NCBI GenBank assembly: GCA_002790835.1
Contig: PFVX01000059.1
Span: 64,723 to 103,692 of the forward strand
Origin: a bacterium CG_4_9_14_3_um_filter_65_15
GTDB lineage: Bacteria; Krumholzibacteriota; Krumholzibacteriia; LZORAL124-64-63
Length of the DNA: 38,970 nt
Direction: 5' to 3'
Of this stretch, positions 26,103 through 35,334 are shown in pieces. A program made the position numbers and the translations under genes. How positions within the stretch are numbered: the first letter of the stretch is position 1; every line of letters begins with the position of its first letter. The notes beneath the pieces are model-generated. The model had not been told where the DNA came from. It saw only the letters and a list, made by a program, of their open reading frames with translations, and searched no databases.

Positions 26103-26384
26103 TTGAGACTGAGCAAGCACAAGATCGAATACCTTTCCGACCGGATCCTCAAGCTGATCCAGAATCACGGTCAGATCCACATCCTGGCCAACGAGGACCT
26201 TCTGGTGCGCGCCGTCGACGATGCGGTCATGGAGAACATGAGGGCCGAGGACGAGATCGACGCCGAAGTCGAAGGGCTCATCAGCCAGAACGTCGATGAG
26301 ATCCGCGCCATGGACATGGACATGGGCGCCCTGCGCAGCAAGATGAAGCGCGAAATCGCGCGCAAACGGAATTTCACCCTGTGA
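26103..26384 (+). CDS. DUF507 family protein, first copy
   Basis: A 93-residue cytoplasmic, helical, highly charged protein. Typical DUF507 features are the LSKHKIEYLSDRILKLI start, an acidic middle with EDEIDAEVEGLI, and a basic end (MKREIARKRNF). The start codon is TTG with GGAGG 6 bases upstream. A second, diverged DUF507 gene follows after 13 bases. The family has no established function. Confidence 0.85.
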   Translation: MRLSKHKIEYLSDRILKLIQNHGQIHILANEDLLVRAVDDAVMENMRAEDEIDAEVEGLISQNVDEIRAMDMDMGALRSKMKREIARKRNFTL

Positions 26385-26397
26385 CCGGAGGAACCCC

Positions 26398-26682
26398 ATG
26401 CGTCTGACCGAGGAACGCGTCGCGGTGCTGGCCAGGGAAATATGCGACCGGCTGCTGGACGAAGAGGTCATCGATCTGGAAATCGCCGAGAGCGATTTCC
26501 GCCACCTCATCGAAAGCCTGATCATCAGGGACCTGAAAGTCGAAGATGAGATCGACGAGGAAGCCACCGCCTTTCTTCTGCGCACCAAGCCCAACCTCGA
26601 AGAGGGCTCCACGGAGTGGGGTATCGAGCTGGAACGGAAGAAGGAAGATCTCGCCGTCGCCCGCGGCTATGTGGCCTTCTGA
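26398..26682 (+). CDS. DUF507 family protein, second copy
   Basis: A 94-residue paralogue of the preceding gene. Both share the RL-x3-R/K-x3-L start, an acidic EDEID motif (residues ~57-61 here) and a basic, Arg/Lys-rich C-terminal third. GGAGG 6 bases upstream supports ATG 26398. The two may form a heterodimer; that is inference from tandem arrangement. A glycosyltransferase gene follows after 54 bases. Confidence 0.87.
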   Translation: MRLTEERVAVLAREICDRLLDEEVIDLEIAESDFRHLIESLIIRDLKVEDEIDEEATAFLLRTKPNLEEGSTEWGIELERKKEDLAVARGYVAF

Positions 26683-28062: not shown

Positions 28063-30492
28063 ATGACCACCTTGATGCTGAATCGGAGCCGCGCCCTGCC
28101 CGTCGCCATGGCGGCGGCCCTGACGGGGTGCCTCCTGCTGGCCGTCCCCGGCTGCGGCAACCGGCCCCGCCCCGAGACCGCTGCGGATATCCCCGGTTAT
28201 CGGGATATGCTCGAGGATGTCGGCCAGGTCGACACGGCGCCCCTGCGCGGTCGCCTGATCCTGCTGGATCCGGGCCACGGCGGTTTCTTCCGGGGCGCCC
28301 GCGGCCCCAACGGCCTGGAAGAGGCCGACGTCAATCTGGGCGTGTCCCTCTACCTGCGCGGCCTGCTGGAGTGGGCCGGCGCCCGGGTGGTCATGACCCG
28401 CACCAGCGACCGGGATTTCCGTACCCACGCCGACTCCACCCTGGCGTCCGATCTCGCCTTCAGGGTTTCCATGATGGATTCCCTTCAACCTGATGTATTC
28501 ATTTCACTTCACCACAACAGCAATCCAAGCTACGACCCCGTGATCAACGAGACCCAGACGTACTATCCCCTCGGAGATTCGGGGCCTTCCCTGCAGTTGG
28601 CCCGGGCCATCCACCGCCATCTGGCCTTCAATCTCGGCATCACCCCCGCCCGGATCCTGCCGGGCAACTTCCACGTTCTGCGCAACGCCACGGTCCCGGC
28701 GGTCCTGGGCGAACCGGCCATGATATCCAACCCGGTCATCGCCGGTCGGCTGAGCCTTGCGGCCAGCCAGAAGCTCGAAGCCGAATCCTACTTCCTGGGT
28801 CTGCTGGACTATTTCTCCCAGGGGGCGCCCGATTGGGACACCACCCTGGCAGACACGCTGGTCTTGCCGGATCAAAGCGAGCAGCCCGCCCTTTCCTGGA
28901 CCTTCGTTCCGGACCACCGAGGTGGCGTTCCGGACTCCCTGGGCCTGGGCCTGCCGGGAGGAGATCCCGCCACTTTTCGCGTGACCTTCAACGGGGAGCC
29001 GCAGTCCTTCGCCCTCGATCGCGGCGGCCGCAACGTGAGCTGGTATCCGCCGGGGTCCTCGGCCGAGGGAGTGGTCACCATCAGCGGCCGCAATCTGGCG
29101 GGTAACAGCACGCCCGCCCGCAGCACCCGACTCGTCCCGGCCGTGTGCGCCGCGCCCGAAGTCTTCATCCTGCGCGAAGCCGCCGCAGACAGCGCGCATT
29201 CCCTGGTGGGTTGGGCCTTTCCCTCCCCGGTTGCGCCCGCTTCGGTCCATGGCCGGTTGACTTGGACCGGCGGGTTTTCCCTGTCCATTGCCAACCAGAC
29301 ACGGGGCGGCCGGCTGGTGGATCCGGATTCTCTGCCTGCGTTGGCGGAGCAGGCGGTCTGGTCTGTTGACGCAGATGCGACCACTCGCCCCTGCACCGTG
29401 ACCGAGGCCGTCCTGCCGGCCGGCTGGCGCCTGGCAACGGTCACGGGTTATCCCGGGTTACCGGACAATGATCTGCCCCTTCGACAATGGCGCTACCGGG
29501 GCAGTCCCCCGCCTCCTCTTCCGGCGGGGATTCAGCTACCGAACGGTTTTGCCGTCGTCCCGGGAACCGACGCCTGGATGGAGTCCGACGGCATCCTGCC
29601 GGTCCGGGTCGGGTCCGGCGCCGAACAGACGGTCCATCCCTCCTTGCAGGTCGACCTCGTCGAGCCCGCCCTGTGGGGGCGCACCATCATCCTTGATCCC
29701 CGCGGCGGCGGCACCGAAACCGACGGCACCGGGCCGCTGGGCACGCGAGGTGCGGATCTCAATTTCGCGGTGGCCCGTTTCGCCGCAGACATGCTGACCG
29801 GCGCCGGCGCGCGGGTCGTCATGACCCGCGCCCAGGGCCAAACCCCGACCGATCCGGCCAAGGTCCTGCTGGCCCGTGAGACGGGGGCCGACCTTTTCCT
29901 TGTCGTCGGACGCGGCGCGGACGACACCACCAGCCTGCGCCACTATCCCGGCAGCACCACCGGATCCGCATGGGCCCGCACGACCGCAGGATTCCTGCTT
30001 CAGTCCTTCGGCGCCCCGGATTCCTGTCGGGTGGGCCCCGGTTCGGACTACCTGCTCCGGCACACCCACTGCCCGGCCCTGGTGGTGGAGTTGCCGGGCA
30101 TCGCCAAAACCGGGTCGGAACTGGCCCAGGGTGAGCCCTTCAACCAGCGCTGTGAAGCCGCTGCCCTTGTCCTGGCCGTGACGGGGGTCCTGAGCGACGA
30201 AGCGTCCGCTTATCCGGCAACCACCCTTCCACAGGTCATGGACGGTCTGGGGTCTGCGCTCACGGATTTCGATTTTGCCCTCTGGGACGGCAACCTGCCG
30301 GCGACCACCCCGGATACGGCCGCCGCTCCTGGTCCCGCTGGCGGAGAATCCGTAGTTTCATACCGGTTGTTGTTGCCCGCACGAGAAGGTCGCCACCAGC
30401 TTGAACTTCATGCCGCAGGTCGGTGGCAAGTCTGGAGCCTTTTGCGGGAGGGGACAAGCTGGCAGGGAAGGGTGGTGCAGGCCGGACCGTGA
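28063..30492 (+). CDS. N-acetylmuramoyl-L-alanine amidase lipoprotein with degenerate second amidase domain
   Basis: An 809-residue lipoprotein; the lipobox VPGC puts the lipid on C31. The first Amidase_3 domain (~62-252) has all active-site residues: H72 in DPGHGG, E87 in GLEEADVNL, H150 in SLHHN and E217 in LGEPAM, so it should cleave the amide between MurNAc and the stem peptide. An Ig-like region follows (~285-350). A second Amidase_3-like domain (~538-700) keeps the fold pattern (IILDPRGGG, GARVVMTR) but lacks the first three residues: H72 becomes G548, E87 becomes Gly and H150 becomes Gly. A C-terminal beta-rich piece ends the protein. The stop overlaps the TonB-like start as GTGA. A weak ribosome site makes a downstream start (ATG 28075) possible. 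Confidence 0.88.
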   Translation: MTTLMLNRSRALPVAMAAALTGCLLLAVPGCGNRPRPETAADIPGYRDMLEDVGQVDTAPLRGRLILLDPGHGGFFRGARGPNGLEEADVNLGVSLYLRGLLEWAGARVVMTRTSDRDFRTHADSTLASDLAFRVSMMDSLQPDVFISLHHNSNPSYDPVINETQTYYPLGDSGPSLQLARAIHRHLAFNLGITPARILPGNFHVLRNATVPAVLGEPAMISNPVIAGRLSLAASQKLEAESYFLGLLDYFSQGAPDWDTTLADTLVLPDQSEQPALSWTFVPDHRGGVPDSLGLGLPGGDPATFRVTFNGEPQSFALDRGGRNVSWYPPGSSAEGVVTISGRNLAGNSTPARSTRLVPAVCAAPEVFILREAAADSAHSLVGWAFPSPVAPASVHGRLTWTGGFSLSIANQTRGGRLVDPDSLPALAEQAVWSVDADATTRPCTVTEAVLPAGWRLATVTGYPGLPDNDLPLRQWRYRGSPPPPLPAGIQLPNGFAVVPGTDAWMESDGILPVRVGSGAEQTVHPSLQVDLVEPALWGRTIILDPRGGGTETDGTGPLGTRGADLNFAVARFAADMLTGAGARVVMTRAQGQTPTDPAKVLLARETGADLFLVVGRGADDTTSLRHYPGSTTGSAWARTTAGFLLQSFGAPDSCRVGPGSDYLLRHTHCPALVVELPGIAKTGSELAQGEPFNQRCEAAALVLAVTGVLSDEASAYPATTLPQVMDGLGSALTDFDFALWDGNLPATTPDTAAAPGPAGGESVVSYRLLLPAREGRHQLELHAAGRWQVWSLLREGTSWQGRVVQAGP

Positions 30493-31241
30493 GGAAACGT
30501 CGAGATGAGCAACGAGTGGAATCCGCCTACACGACCCGTGCCCAAACGGAGTTCCGCGGCAGCAATTCTCGGCGGCTGGCATGGGCGGCCCTGGCCGCCG
30601 CATCGATCCTGATCCTGCTGGCCTTGCTGGGCCCCGACCGGGAAGCGGTCAAACAGCGCTTCGAATACTACGGCAAACCCGGTGAGCTGAAGATCATGCC
30701 CGAGGTCTCCATCGATGAGGGGAGTGATCAGGTCCACCAGTTGCCCAAATCCCTCCAGCGGCCGCCGCCACCCGCCTTCGAGAACCAGGAAAACGAAGAC
30801 CTCGATCCGAAGGCCAAGGAAGTCGTCCCTGTGCCGAGCAAGGAAGACCCGCGAAAGGTCCTCGACCCCGCGCAGCAGGTGGACCCATCTGCGGAGGTGG
30901 CATCCCAGGAACAGGTGGAACTTCGCCTGCCCAGCCAGTCCAATCCCGACTGGTACATCCTCAAGCAGGTCAATCCCGAGTATCCCCTGAGCGCGTCGGA
31001 GATCGAACGGCGGACACCCATCATCTTCGTCCGGGCCGCCATCTTTGTCGGACCGGACGGCATGGTCCTGGAAAAGATGGTCCTGGGCACCAACGGCAGC
31101 CCGGTGTTCGCCCGTGAAGTCCTTGCCGCCCTGGATAAATGGGTATTTGGTTGGCGGGTCCCCCAGGAACAGGGGCGCTGGATCGAGATGACCTGGAATT
31201 TCAAGAGTCCCTATTTCAGCGTGACTCCAAGCTCCGGTTAG
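30489..31241 (+). CDS. TonB-like energy-transducer protein
   Basis: A 250-residue inner-membrane protein with a basic N-terminus, one membrane helix (30-48, LAWAALAAASILILLALLG), a Pro/Glu-rich periplasmic spacer (PPPP at 92-95) and a TonB C-terminal-like domain (~165-245: NPEYPLSASE, IFVGPDGMVLEKMVLG, ALDKWVFGW). GTG 30489 overlaps the amidase stop, implying translational coupling; the longer frame to 30423 lies inside the amidase gene. No exbB or exbD is present nearby, so energy transduction is not assured and a structural role in the envelope is possible. The 3' end overlaps the convergent LpoA-like gene by 26 bases. Confidence 0.8.
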   Translation: MRKRRDEQRVESAYTTRAQTEFRGSNSRRLAWAALAAASILILLALLGPDREAVKQRFEYYGKPGELKIMPEVSIDEGSDQVHQLPKSLQRPPPPAFENQENEDLDPKAKEVVPVPSKEDPRKVLDPAQQVDPSAEVASQEQVELRLPSQSNPDWYILKQVNPEYPLSASEIERRTPIIFVRAAIFVGPDGMVLEKMVLGTNGSPVFAREVLAALDKWVFGWRVPQEQGRWIEMTWNFKSPYFSVTPSSG

Positions 31242-33093
31242 CCGTGGAATCCGAATCGGGGGACAAGAAGCGCGTCCCGGAACTGTCGGAAGCGGCGGCG
31301 AAGGCTGCGCGGAAAAGTCCAGCCGGGAAGGTCTCCCGCGTACCATTGCGCACCAGGCGCAGGCCCCGCGTCAGAGCCGCCACGTCCCCGTCCCCCATTT
31401 CCTCGACGGTGGAGGCCTGCAGATACTCCGCCAGGGCGCGAGCGATTTCCGCGCGGTTGGGGGCCGTGTCCCCGGCCATCGCCTCGGCCACCCGGCGAAC
31501 GGCGAGATAGGTCATGCGCGCCACGGCCGTCTGATCCCCGCTGTAGGCGTCCTCTTCCCAGGATGCCTCAAACCGGTCGACCCAGGCGGAGGGAAACCGG
31601 GCCTGGCCGTCGGGATAGATTACACCCTCGAATGCCGCAGCCTGCTGGACAGAGGGTTGCCCGGAACTCCAGGCGCTGGTGCCCAGGACCAGGGAACCGA
31701 GGTGGTGGAAATCAAGCTGCGGCCCCAACAGGGTCATCTGTTCGAAACTGGCAGGCACGAAGACGACTTCCGGCATCCGCCGACGCACCTCGAGGATCTG
31801 GGCATGAAAATCGGTGACCGCCGCCGGAAAGTACGCTTCGGCGACCACCTCTCCTCCCAGGCTGTCGACCCGCGCCCGAAAGATGTCGCCCATGCTGTGG
31901 CCCGCAGGATTGTCCGGGCCGAGGATGGCGGTGCGCTTCTTGCCCAGCACGACCACGGCCAGATCAGCAAGATTCCGGATATCCCGCTGGTCGTTCATGT
32001 TGGTCTGGAAGATACCCTCGCCCAGGCTCTCGATGCGCTCGTTGGAGGCGGTGGGAGAAACCAGGGGGACGCCGGCGGCCGAAGCGACAAGGGCGGCGGC
32101 AACCGTAGGCCCGGAAGCCAGCGCGCCTACCAGCACCCCGACCTGGGGTCGAGCACAGAACGTGCGTGCAGCCTGGACGGCCTGAACCGGGTCCCCACCC
32201 GTATCCAGCTCCTCCAGAGTCAGTTCAGGGCCACCAGCTTCCCGGGCATGGGTCAAGGCGAGCCGGGCGGCCTCATCCATGGCGTTGCCGAATCCGGCGT
32301 TTCTCCCGGTCAGGGGCACCAGCAGGCCCACCACCGTGGCCGCCTGCCGGTCTGCGGGCGCCGCAAGGGTTCGCCTCCCAGCCACCAGGTCGGCTGAGGC
32401 CGCAGCCCAGGGATCACCGGGCGTAGCGGCCACCAGGGCGGTGGCCACGATTCGGGCCTGGTCCACGCGACCGGCCAACATCAATCTCCGTACGCGATGG
32501 AAGCCCAACAACCCCTCAACGGGTAGGGGGGCCAGACGTATCTCCAGTTGGCCCAACTGAGCTCGGTTCAGGCCGCTCAGCAGGGGAACCGGCCCGATCA
32601 GGTCGGAGTCGCCCAACACCAGCATAGGATCCTGCCGCCACAGCAGAACCTGGAAGGCCGCCGCGGTCAGGGTATCGCGCTGGCCAAGGGCCAGGTCGCG
32701 GGTTTTGAGGAATGTCGGGCTCAGCAAGGAATCGGCGGCGAATGAGCCCTCGTACAGGCGAGCCCATCCCAGACTGGTGGCCGGGTCGCCCAACTTCATT
32801 GCCGCAGGGATAGCCAGGGCCAAGGCCGTTGCGCATCGCGGGTCATCGCGATGGTAACCGAGCAGGGCGCCGGTGGTCCGCACAACCTGGCCCCACTGAC
32901 CCAGGGAATCGTAGTCCCGGATCTGGGCCAGAAGCGCGGCGGCTTGCTGATCACGGGTACCGGCCAGAGGCTTGGTGTCCGCATTCTTTCCGTCCAAGAC
33001 ACCGCCGCAACCGGCCAGGACAAAAAGGATCGCCCCCACCGCAAGGACCCAGGGCAGGGCCCGAGCTCGCTGCAAGCTAATCTGCATGATCAT
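31216..33093 (-). CDS. LpoA-like lipoprotein with periplasmic-binding fold
   Basis: A 625-residue outer-membrane or periplasmic lipoprotein; lipobox LAGC, C29. Residues ~45-245 are helical, TPR-like; ~250-600 form a type I periplasmic-binding fold (VVGLLVPLTGRNAGFGNAMDEAARLAL, shown by GLLVPLTGRNAGFG and later VLVGALASGPTVAAA and VPLVSPTAS). That two-part layout is the layout of LpoA/LppC, the lipoprotein that activates penicillin-binding protein 1A. A plain amino-acid-transport binding protein is the alternative, but no ABC permease genes are adjacent. ATG 33093 is used; ATG 33087 is also possible. It overlaps the DUF2914 gene by 17 bases, so it belongs to that operon. Confidence 0.8.
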   Translation of the reverse strand: MIMQISLQRARALPWVLAVGAILFVLAGCGGVLDGKNADTKPLAGTRDQQAAALLAQIRDYDSLGQWGQVVRTTGALLGYHRDDPRCATALALAIPAAMKLGDPATSLGWARLYEGSFAADSLLSPTFLKTRDLALGQRDTLTAAAFQVLLWRQDPMLVLGDSDLIGPVPLLSGLNRAQLGQLEIRLAPLPVEGLLGFHRVRRLMLAGRVDQARIVATALVAATPGDPWAAASADLVAGRRTLAAPADRQAATVVGLLVPLTGRNAGFGNAMDEAARLALTHAREAGGPELTLEELDTGGDPVQAVQAARTFCARPQVGVLVGALASGPTVAAALVASAAGVPLVSPTASNERIESLGEGIFQTNMNDQRDIRNLADLAVVVLGKKRTAILGPDNPAGHSMGDIFRARVDSLGGEVVAEAYFPAAVTDFHAQILEVRRRMPEVVFVPASFEQMTLLGPQLDFHHLGSLVLGTSAWSSGQPSVQQAAAFEGVIYPDGQARFPSAWVDRFEASWEEDAYSGDQTAVARMTYLAVRRVAEAMAGDTAPNRAEIARALAEYLQASTVEEMGDGDVAALTRGLRLVRNGTRETFPAGLFRAAFAAASDSSGTRFLSPDSDSTANRSLESR

Positions 33094-33520
33094 CCGGGGA
33101 TTCGGCCGTGATGGTGAACGACGAGGTACCCAGAACGAGTCCCTGGGGATCCAGGACCTTCACTTCCCAGGCACCCGTCCATGCGGGCATGATGTTCTTG
33201 GAGGTCCAGGTGCGGTAGTCCCGCGACCTGACGGGCAGTTCCACGCGGGCCATGGTCCGACCATCGCGGTACCAGACGAAGGTCACGGTGGTCGGAACGG
33301 GGGCGTCCACCACCCGAGCCAGGCAATAGACTATTCCGCAATCGGCCGCAAATTCCTTGCCGACCCCCTGCAGGGAACGGGTGGCGCGGTCGAAACCGAT
33401 CCCGCAAGACAGGTCGGCATGAGCCGCGGCCGGTCCTTCAGCCGCCATCCCGGTTGCGATGGTCGCACCACCGATCAACAACCCCGCAATCAACACGATA
33501 CAGCGTGCTCGCCGGGTCAT
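33077..33520 (-). CDS. Secreted DUF2914 domain protein
   Basis: A 147-residue exported protein with a signal peptide (1-~36) and a beta-rich DUF2914-type domain (~60-137). Diagnostic residues are W83-Y84-R85-D86-G87 and RTWTSKN (103-109), then GAWEVKVLD and VLGTSSFTI. AGGAGG lies 7 bases before ATG 33520, which selects it over the longer frame from 33616 that overlaps the ppiC gene. It sits 10 bases after the PpiC-type gene and overlaps the LpoA-like gene. The family is of unknown function and is often found with envelope or membrane proteins. Confidence 0.8.
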   Translation of the reverse strand: MTRRARCIVLIAGLLIGGATIATGMAAEGPAAAHADLSCGIGFDRATRSLQGVGKEFAADCGIVYCLARVVDAPVPTTVTFVWYRDGRTMARVELPVRSRDYRTWTSKNIMPAWTGAWEVKVLDPQGLVLGTSSFTITAESPDDHAD

Positions 33521-33530
33521 TTCTAGCCTC

Positions 33531-34763
33531 CTATTTTCCGACAGCCCCACCACTGCGCAGTCGACGCAACAACTTCGGATCATTGATATTGTCCCGCAAA
33601 TAGGTCGCATCGTCAATCAACTCGCTGTCGGGATATTCGTCGATGAGCATCTGGAGATAGCGGCCGGCGATCCGGGTGTCATCGAACATCTCGATGGCAA
33701 CCTGGGCGGCCATGAAAAGGGCGTCGTCGGCGCGGTCACTCTCGGGATAATCCGTGTGGATGAGGGTATACAGGTCCAACTTATCCTTGGCCTCCGGTAG
33801 GACCATGGCCCGGGCGAATATCTCCTCAACGGTCATGCCCTGCCCCGGTCCGTACTCCCCGAACATCTGGACTTCGAAATGCTTGCGGGCGTCCAGCAGG
33901 TAATCCTTGATGATGGCGTCCTGGAATCCGGGCATCATGTCCTTGCGCACCTGTTCCCTGGCCTCGGCGAAGGTCTTGGAGCGCGCCGGTTGCCTCTGGT
34001 AGAGCTCCACCACATGCCAGCGATCCCCCACCTGGAAGGGCGGATTGAGTCCGTCCGGAAGGGCGAAGGCCTTGGTGGTGAAAATCTGCGAATTCGGGAT
34101 GATGGGGATGACCCCACCGTCGTTGAACCAACCCAGATCCCCGTCCAATTTCCTGAGTTCCTCGTTGACGCAATAGTCTTTCACAACATAGGGATATTGG
34201 TTCTTTGCTCCGCCCATTTTCAACCGAAGATAGGCTGCTTCCGCATCCGCTTTGGTGGAGGTATCCAAATCCCGCGCCTTGACCAATCCCAACTGCCGAT
34301 ACTTGTCGCGGTGCTCCTGGAAGAATTCCTGCAGCTCCGCGTCCGAGGGCTCCTTGTCCAACAACAATCCGTAGTTTGTCATGGCCGATTCCAGGGTCTC
34401 GCGACGCCGGGAAATGAGCGTCCGCGCGACATCCTGGTCATTGTAGAGTTCCCGCTCAACGGCCCCGAGCGCCAACACGGCCTTGTCCACCATGTGCTTG
34501 AGAGCCAACCGGCGGCCGTCCGCCCCTTCGTACCTGCGATGCATGGCGGGCGGCAACTCTTCCAGAAACATGTCCAGGTCGTCTTGGGTTATCTCGACCT
34601 TACCCACGCGGGCCAGAACGGGAGAATTGTCGTTTCCGCGGTCCCCGAACAAGGGGAGAAAGTCAGAGGGATCCTGCCGGGATCCCGATTGCTGGCATCC
34701 GCCGAGAACTACCAACCCGCACAGGGCAAGCAGGGACAAGACTATGCGGTGACGAGGGGACAT
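33531..34763 (-). CDS. SurA/PpiC-type peptidyl-prolyl isomerase lipoprotein
   Basis: A 410-residue periplasmic lipoprotein; lipobox LGGC, C23. The N-terminal chaperone-like helical part (~45-150, VLARVGKVEITQDDLDMFL) precedes a parvulin-like domain (~155-275, with GDLGWFNDGG and WHVVELYQRQPA). Such proteins help fold outer-membrane proteins. The C-terminal ~100 residues look TPR-like (YPESDRADDALFMAAQVAIE). ATG 34763 has AAGGAG upstream. It is first in the operon with the DUF2914 and LpoA-like genes, and 127 bases downstream of rplI on the same strand. Confidence 0.88.
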   Translation of the reverse strand: MSPRHRIVLSLLALCGLVVLGGCQQSGSRQDPSDFLPLFGDRGNDNSPVLARVGKVEITQDDLDMFLEELPPAMHRRYEGADGRRLALKHMVDKAVLALGAVERELYNDQDVARTLISRRRETLESAMTNYGLLLDKEPSDAELQEFFQEHRDKYRQLGLVKARDLDTSTKADAEAAYLRLKMGGAKNQYPYVVKDYCVNEELRKLDGDLGWFNDGGVIPIIPNSQIFTTKAFALPDGLNPPFQVGDRWHVVELYQRQPARSKTFAEAREQVRKDMMPGFQDAIIKDYLLDARKHFEVQMFGEYGPGQGMTVEEIFARAMVLPEAKDKLDLYTLIHTDYPESDRADDALFMAAQVAIEMFDDTRIAGRYLQMLIDEYPDSELIDDATYLRDNINDPKLLRRLRSGGAVGK

Positions 34764-34829
34764 CTCAACTGCTCCTTGCTGAAATCAATAACCATCGCAC
34801 GGGCGCACACGAACACCTTGCAACCCCCA

Positions 34830-34857
34830 CCAGGTTCGGGAGTTCCCGGTCTCCTGG
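34830..34857 (-). other. Hairpin between rplI and the PpiC-type gene
   Basis: CCAGG and CCTGG enclose a second stem CGGGA/TCCCG in the 127-base gap. No T run follows on the minus strand, so this is not a standard terminator; it might attenuate readthrough from rplI. Confidence 0.3.
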
Positions 34858-34890
34858 CCGCACCCATGTCGGATTCCCCGGCGCTGAGGG

Positions 34891-35334
34891 TCAAGCCTTG
34901 ACGACCCAGACCTTGGCCGTGAGTTCCACTTCCGCGTGCAGCCGCACCGGAACGGAGTAAACGCCCAGCTGCTTGATGGGCTCCTCCAGGACGACCTGCT
35001 TGAGCTCCAGCTCGATATTCTCGTTCGCCAGGGCTTCGACGATGCTCCGAGCGGTGACGGAGCCAAAAAGCTTGTCGTCATCACCGGCCTGGACCGCGAT
35101 GGTGCAGGAAAGCTCGCCCAGCTGGCGGGCACGCTCTTCGGCGCCGGCCTTGCGCAGGTCATCGCGCTTGGCTTCGAGCTTCATATGCTCCTGGAGCACG
35201 TTCCGGTTCCCGGGAGTTGCGGTCAGGGCCAACCCCTGAGGCAACAGGAAGTTGCGGGCATAGCCACGGCTGACATTGACGGTTTGACCCATCTCGCCGA
35301 GTTCCTCTACGTCCTGCATCAGAATCACATCCAT
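34891..35334 (-). CDS. rplI: 50S ribosomal protein L9
   Basis: A 147-residue ribosomal protein, the normal length. The N-terminal rRNA-binding domain has MDVILMQDVEELGEMGQTVNVSRGYARNFLLP (core: GQTVNVSRGYARNFLLP), the central helix is Lys/Glu-rich, and the C-domain follows with KLFGSVT. The start is ATG 35334, one base after the DUF2232 stop, with AGGTGG upstream. It closes the rpsF-rpsR-DUF2232-rplI block. Confidence 0.97.
   Translation of the reverse strand: MDVILMQDVEELGEMGQTVNVSRGYARNFLLPQGLALTATPGNRNVLQEHMKLEAKRDDLRKAGAEERARQLGELSCTIAVQAGDDDKLFGSVTARSIVEALANENIELELKQVVLEEPIKQLGVYSVPVRLHAEVELTAKVWVVKA

Follow-up and report, generated by a model that had tools for sequence, protein, structure and literature searches.

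LpoA, which belongs to the LppC family (PF04348), is the activator of the penicillin-binding protein PBP1A of Escherichia coli. Published work describes its C-terminal domain as the part that binds PBP1A in E. coli (PMC4111904), and describes LpoA as docking on an insertion of PBP1A named ODD, with ODD and LpoA sharing their distribution in the gamma-proteobacteria (PMC3060616; PMC4632607); in one of these reports, LpoA and the docking domain are presented as confined to the gamma-proteobacteria (PMC3060616). Here we analysed a stretch of 38,970 nucleotides (nt), hereafter the window, from the genome of a member of the Krumholzibacteriota (bacterium CG_4_9_14_3_um_filter_65_15; 3.39 Mb, 95.2% complete; window on contig C64), with emphasis on a lipoprotein of 625 amino acids (aa), labelled LPO, that joins a stalk of TPR type to a Peripla_BP_6 fold. 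An earlier note on this DNA had read LPO as having the layout of LpoA and had suggested LpoA-like cell-wall control outside the gammaproteobacteria. Our results indicate that the role of LPO is probably to bind proteins rather than to take up solutes; that it is an LpoA-like, lipid-anchored scaffold for envelope biogenesis is a reading that we prefer tentatively and would not call probable.

LPO between the Liv-type proteins and LpoA

Lipoboxes and signal peptides, here and below, were read by eye. LPO and its two parts are encoded as follows.

31216-33093, minus strand: LPO lipoprotein, 625 aa, with lipobox LAGC and a match to PF13458 (E = 6e-36, 125.2 bits)
32383-32955, minus strand: N-terminal TPR-type stalk of LPO, residues 47-237, from the predicted model
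31309-32337, minus strand: periplasmic-binding domain of LPO, residues 253-595, with Liv-type pocket positions replaced

In the AlphaFold2 model of LPO (27-row alignment; mean pLDDT 84.5, pTM 0.58) the lipobox is followed by a helical repeat stalk and then by an ordinary two-lobe periplasmic-binding domain; the stalk modelled alone reached pLDDT 93.2, and the binding domain matched 3hut with Z 32.4 (323 aligned, root mean square deviation [rmsd] 2.9). The layout of LppC/LpoA proteins (lipobox, helical N-terminal domain, C-terminal domain of periplasmic-binding fold) was thereby recovered from sequence and predicted model alike, as the earlier note had proposed. Family-level similarity was assessed with an alignment of 26 LPO genes out of 37 LPO genomes (omitting the cut or partial L016, L023 and L024, L019 as close to L018, and seven matches without a locus). 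Eleven of these 26 LPOs matched LppC at E ≤ 0.01, two of them over the family cut-off (L022, 31.3 bits; L025, 32.1 bits), and in three the match extended into the stalk (L022, L025 and L018, the last at 21.2 bits); the E. coli LpoA control scored 451.5 bits. None of seven plain binding proteins (LivJ, LivK and five of the phylum, three of these beside permeases) matched LppC at E ≤ 0.1, despite scoring 179-250 bits to PF13458. Profile-profile alignment (hhalign) to E. coli LpoA behaved in the same manner, giving a probability of 91.9 over 378 columns for the 26 LPOs (E = 7.1e-7), 75.3 for 11 LPOs (E = 2.5e-5) and 61.3 for seven LPOs (E = 8e-5; 181 columns, mostly stalk), against 2.4 for the seven plain binding proteins (E = 0.02, 95 columns). 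Foldseek aligned the model with Haemophilus influenzae LpoA (5vbg, 5kcn and 5vat) over 587-609 columns, gaps included, at E = 3.7e-11 to 2.1e-10; the remaining alignments among the 50 PDB rows listed spanned at most 410 columns, leaving the full-length LpoA entries as the only ones there long enough to take in both halves.

Several results weigh against an assignment to LpoA. The LPO of the window scored 20.2 bits to LppC, below the cut-off of 28.8, and it is one of eight LPOs in which the match is confined to the periplasmic-binding part. That domain is nearer to Liv proteins than to LpoA by both sequence and fold; LivJ aligned with the LPO profile better than LpoA did (probability 97.4, E = 1.5e-11), and no LpoA chain occurred in the best 60 of 74 PDB sequence matches to the profile. 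Taken alone, with close relatives, the stalk gave an hhalign probability of only 3.3 to LpoA. In the Foldseek matches to LpoA the TM-scores, normalised by query length, were low (0.34-0.36) and the rmsd was 17-19, values expected if the two halves are set differently. LpoA does not appear in the 50 rows given for the stalk or in those for the whole-model VIA-align comparison, an absence that leaves room for an LpoA likeness. Judged by sequence comparison, LPO is intermediate between Liv proteins and LpoA and we do not file it as an LppC/LpoA member, although its layout suggests that it may act in the manner of LpoA. The LpoA-like character put forward in the earlier note was thus upheld as a weak similarity to LppC, absent from the plain binding proteins, and not as a family match of the window protein itself. 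Similar proteins elsewhere presumably carry the NCBI name 'penicillin-binding protein activator'.

The best sequence and fold matches of LPO are Liv-type proteins and it has a Peripla_BP_6 domain, which would suit a binding protein for branched-chain amino-acid transport. Against this, LPO is the single PF13458 protein found in the host genome, and that genome yielded no match to the corresponding permease family PF02653 (BPD_transp_2), in a search whose control was positive in 12 of 14 known genomes. Across 48 genomes of the phylum (at least 90% complete, all from one class of Krumholzibacteriota), PF02653 permeases were found in 14 and not found in 34, and 33 of those 34 have LPO. Where LPO and a permease occur together (13 of 48 genomes) the two are placed on separate draft contigs, except in G015, where ~300 kb lies between them, and in G037 it is a plain binding protein that adjoins two permease genes.

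The pocket was surveyed in 34 of the 37 LPO genomes at LivJ positions 150, 202 and 226, which we take, as we do the other residue roles in LivJ, to contact the ligand. The window LPO has A, S and S at these positions. An aromatic residue at position 150 or 202 occurred in 0 of 34 LPOs and, at each position, in six of the seven plain proteins; the column for position 150 is uncertain by one residue, since the plain protein of G037 shows D there in one alignment and Y in another. Four of 34 LPOs have an acidic residue at position 226, which proves little, because the acid is also missing in four of the seven plain proteins, including the permease-linked ones of G049 and G050. The nutrient pocket being seemingly lost, LPO probably serves envelope building, not uptake. 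We rejected LPO as a transport binding protein on the permease that was not found, the pocket loss and the TPR fusion, and consider such a role very improbable. The outcome that the earlier note had named as telling for a transporter, namely best matches to branched-chain amino-acid binding proteins with conserved ligand-binding residues and linked permeases, accordingly appeared in half: the best matches are Liv-type, whereas the pocket positions are lost and no permease was found. S or T is retained at the positions of LivJ S79 (31 of 34 LPOs) and T102 (30 of 34), and together with the ordinary two-lobe fold these residues would be consistent with a receptor in the periplasm whose ligand is a small molecule but not an amino acid (a cell-wall fragment, for example) and which signals by protein contact. 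The replacement of positions 150, 202 and 226 (the last weak by itself) speaks against such a receptor, and we regard it as improbable, if less so than a transport protein.

A SurA-like partner and candidate targets

LPO is the last gene of a three-gene set on the minus strand (34763-31216), in the order SurA-like gene, DUF2914 gene, LPO. The two other members are the following.

33531-34763, minus strand: SurA/PpiC-like peptidyl-prolyl isomerase lipoprotein, 410 aa, with a C-terminal TPR_6-like stretch (Pfam)
33077-33520, minus strand: exported DUF2914 protein, 147 aa (PF11141, E = 1.3e-21, 76.5 bits)

The SurA-like protein matches PF13145 (Rotamase_2; E = 7.1e-12, 46.6 bits), carries the lipobox LGGC and scores 23.3 bits to TPR_6, under the cut-off of 26.3. 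The DUF2914 protein, for which an ATG start was chosen, has a signal-peptide-like N-terminus. A gap of 10 nt separates the SurA-like and DUF2914 genes, and the DUF2914 gene overlaps LPO by 17 nt if LPO begins at its first ATG. Coordinates, spacing and Pfam matches agree with the tight operon described in the earlier note, in which two lipoproteins and an exported DUF2914 protein are convergent with a TonB-like/amidase pair.

LPO is present in 46 of the 48 phylum genomes; G004 and G050, two assemblies of many contigs, showed none, and G049 has a fragment. Two sets of loci were compared: a first set with 26 loci in 24 genomes, and a distant set of 18 LPO loci that belong to other families in the class or to genera of family f1 that lack DUF2914. 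The order SurA-like gene, DUF2914 gene, LPO was kept at 22 of the 26 first-set loci, the remaining four starting inside LPO at a contig end, and the SurA-like gene stood upstream of LPO at 16 of the 18 distant loci, the exceptions being two at contig ends; with conservation of this extent, the gene set is more than chance. DUF2914 behaved differently from the SurA-like gene. It was found at 3 of the 18 distant loci within the stretches taken; among 38 genomes, 30 have DUF2914, which adjoins LPO in 18 (family f1), lies within ~2 kb in three (f5) and is unlinked in nine, and of the eight genomes that lack it, seven retain LPO. The constant partner of LPO is the SurA-like gene, and DUF2914, given this distribution, is an optional extra. 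We rejected DUF2914 as a necessary partner on the same grounds, and the earlier suggestion that it may be the partner of LPO fares poorly.

Other genes occur between SurA and LPO at some distant loci. A bifunctional-nuclease gene (PF02577) was seen at one locus each in families f5, f3 and f6, and a hexapeptide-repeat gene at loci in f5 and f3; the inserts lie at L063:4307-4888, L074:5338-5823 and L072:4791-5811, with the hexapeptide-repeat gene also in L063 and L072 (three insert genes were identified by Pfam, the others by eye). At L067:3194-5017, in genome G029, the SurA-like profile matched two consecutive stretches upstream of LPO; both share one whole-sequence E-value, so this is probably a single frame with a repeated SurA-like part.

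The association with a SurA-like chaperone raises the alternative that LPO is an adaptor for outer-membrane protein assembly, acting with its stalk and the chaperone on the BAM pathway while the periplasmic-binding head holds a client or partner. The SurA-like gene is upstream of LPO at all 22 first-set loci that reach so far. In Foldseek the stalk had one match at E ≤ 0.001, which was also its best, to Rhodothermus marinus BamD (E = 3.8e-4). BamD chains were matched by the LPO profile (9cmw_D, E = 7.4e-14, profile positions 12-172), and the stalk aligned with the BamD of the host genome at probability 85.7 over 70 columns, which also counts against reading the stalk as that of an LpoA. YfiO matches at E ≤ 0.01 were obtained for 4 of the 26 LPOs, the window LPO having none at E ≤ 1, and the TPR tail of the SurA-like protein in G035 matched YfiO at 27.4 bits. 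These TPR matches are generic, however, since many TPR proteins other than BamD score alike against the stalk (Z 10.3-12.1, 50 rows listed), and the stalk compares weakly with the TPR tail of the window's SurA-like protein (probability 13.5). The host genome moreover encodes a separate BamD-type lipoprotein elsewhere, by which LPO was rejected as the host's BamD, and we know of no BAM component with a periplasmic-binding fold, a further count against the adaptor. We judge it a serious but doubtful alternative.

As for the LpoA-like reading, the host genome holds one protein with a Transgly match, a class A penicillin-binding protein of 696 aa encoded at L032:1309-3399, as a possible target. 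Its two catalytic matches are separated by 115 residues, compared with 199 in E. coli PBP1A, and PCB_OB, the OB region of PBP1A, gave no match in it (the E. coli PBP1A control was positive) and exceeded its cut-off in 0 of 48 phylum genomes, with two weak matches; PCB_OB serves here as a proxy for PBP1A docking and does not model ODD itself. With the known docking site not evident, an LPO activator would need another docking surface. The proposal of LpoA-like control beyond the gammaproteobacteria accordingly stands as regards the layout of LPO and is weakened by a stalk nearer to BamD and by an OB region that was not found. Transgly matches occurred in 44 of 48 phylum genomes and in 42 of 46 with LPO, a co-occurrence that fits and discriminates little since both are near universal; some were of monofunctional size, such as the sole match of G008 (a 265-aa frame). 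Less favorable to a class A target are the 4 of 46 genomes, and 7 of the 37 LPO genomes from which the alignment was drawn (five of the seven at most 87% complete), that have LPO and no Transgly match. An amidase gene adjoins the window's locus and was not found near LPO at 9 of the 18 distant loci within the stretches taken, which likewise weighs against the LpoA-like reading.

We propose that LPO is lipid-anchored, probably in the outer membrane, and would be made together with the SurA-like chaperone. Its TPR stalk and ligand-dead head would extend into the periplasm to bind enzymes of the envelope, in the way of LpoA, most likely tuning peptidoglycan synthesis or remodelling through the class A penicillin-binding protein or the neighbouring amidase. 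That the target is a peptidoglycan enzyme is possible and falls a little short of an even chance. Peptidoglycan regulation is nonetheless the likeliest use of LPO, held with somewhat less than even confidence, and precedes outer-membrane assembly with the SurA-like protein, which we think rather unlikely. The widest form of the proposal, a phylum-wide Lpo-type peptidoglycan regulator, intermediate between Liv proteins and LpoA and linked through its operon to a SurA-like chaperone, that tunes outer-membrane assembly along with wall growth, is speculative and unlikely as a whole.

Neighbouring genes

The genes next to the three-gene set in the window are listed below.

30423-31241, plus strand: convergent protein with a TonB-C-like end, 272 aa, family scores under cut-offs
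28063-30492, plus strand: N-acetylmuramoyl-L-alanine amidase, 809 aa, lipobox-like start (PF01520, E = 3.6e-39)
34891-35334, minus strand: ribosomal protein L9 (rplI), upstream of the SurA-like gene, assigned by resemblance with no family scan

The 3' ends of LPO and the convergent TonB-like gene overlap by 26 nt; the product of the latter scored 18.4 bits to TonB_C (cut-off 24.6), and another match, at 20.3 bits, was also below its cut-off. The TonB-like and amidase genes are convergent with LPO at all 21 first-set loci that extend past it, and within the stretches taken they were found at 12 and 9 of the 18 distant loci, respectively. The window amidase (28063-30492) pairs a catalytic domain with a degenerate second amidase domain: the zinc-site motif DPGHGG is present in all 18 rows that cover the first domain and in none of the 19 rows at the second, three or four further rows of the alignment being truncated.

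Upstream, the order rpsF-rpsR-DUF2232-rplI before the SurA-like gene recurs at the loci of relatives. In the window just 127 nt (34764-34890) separate rplI from the SurA-like gene; at L036:3118-4221 a gene for ManC (mannose-1-phosphate guanylyltransferase, by Pfam) stands between the two, and ManC-similar open reading frames were noted by eye in L072 and L074. Elsewhere in the window (26103-26682), two adjoining short genes match positions 1-93 and 95-181 of the 182-position DUF507 model, and the domain appears to be split across them. A promoter and terminator scan gave 2 promoter-like sites (0.7 expected) and 8 terminator-like sites (3.7 expected) and was not used further; a single-protein scan of the genome contigs gave no matches. 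Among the literature matches listed, in many cases a minor fraction of those found, no paper concerned TPR-periplasmic-binding lipoproteins of Krumholzibacteriota, and those for DUF2914 were unrelated.

Comparison with described systems

If the LpoA-like reading is true, LPO, which has diverged less from transport proteins, would illustrate the path from a solute-binding protein to a regulator of the envelope; for bacteria that are uncultured, it would provide a concrete candidate for the control of cell-wall growth. With BamD/YfiO it shares an N-terminal lipoprotein signal and TPR repeats, and differs in carrying a periplasmic-binding domain. That domain is in turn shared with the Liv/HAAT proteins, from which LPO is set apart by the fused TPR stalk, the loss of the pocket aromatics and the permease that was not found. 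With LpoA the likeness comprises the lipobox, N-terminal helical repeats and a C-terminal periplasmic-binding fold, and a weak similarity of the 26-member profile that runs collinearly over both domains; the genomic setting is different, LPO being fixed beside a SurA-like gene while E. coli lpoA lies beside rsmI, yraN, diaA and dolP.

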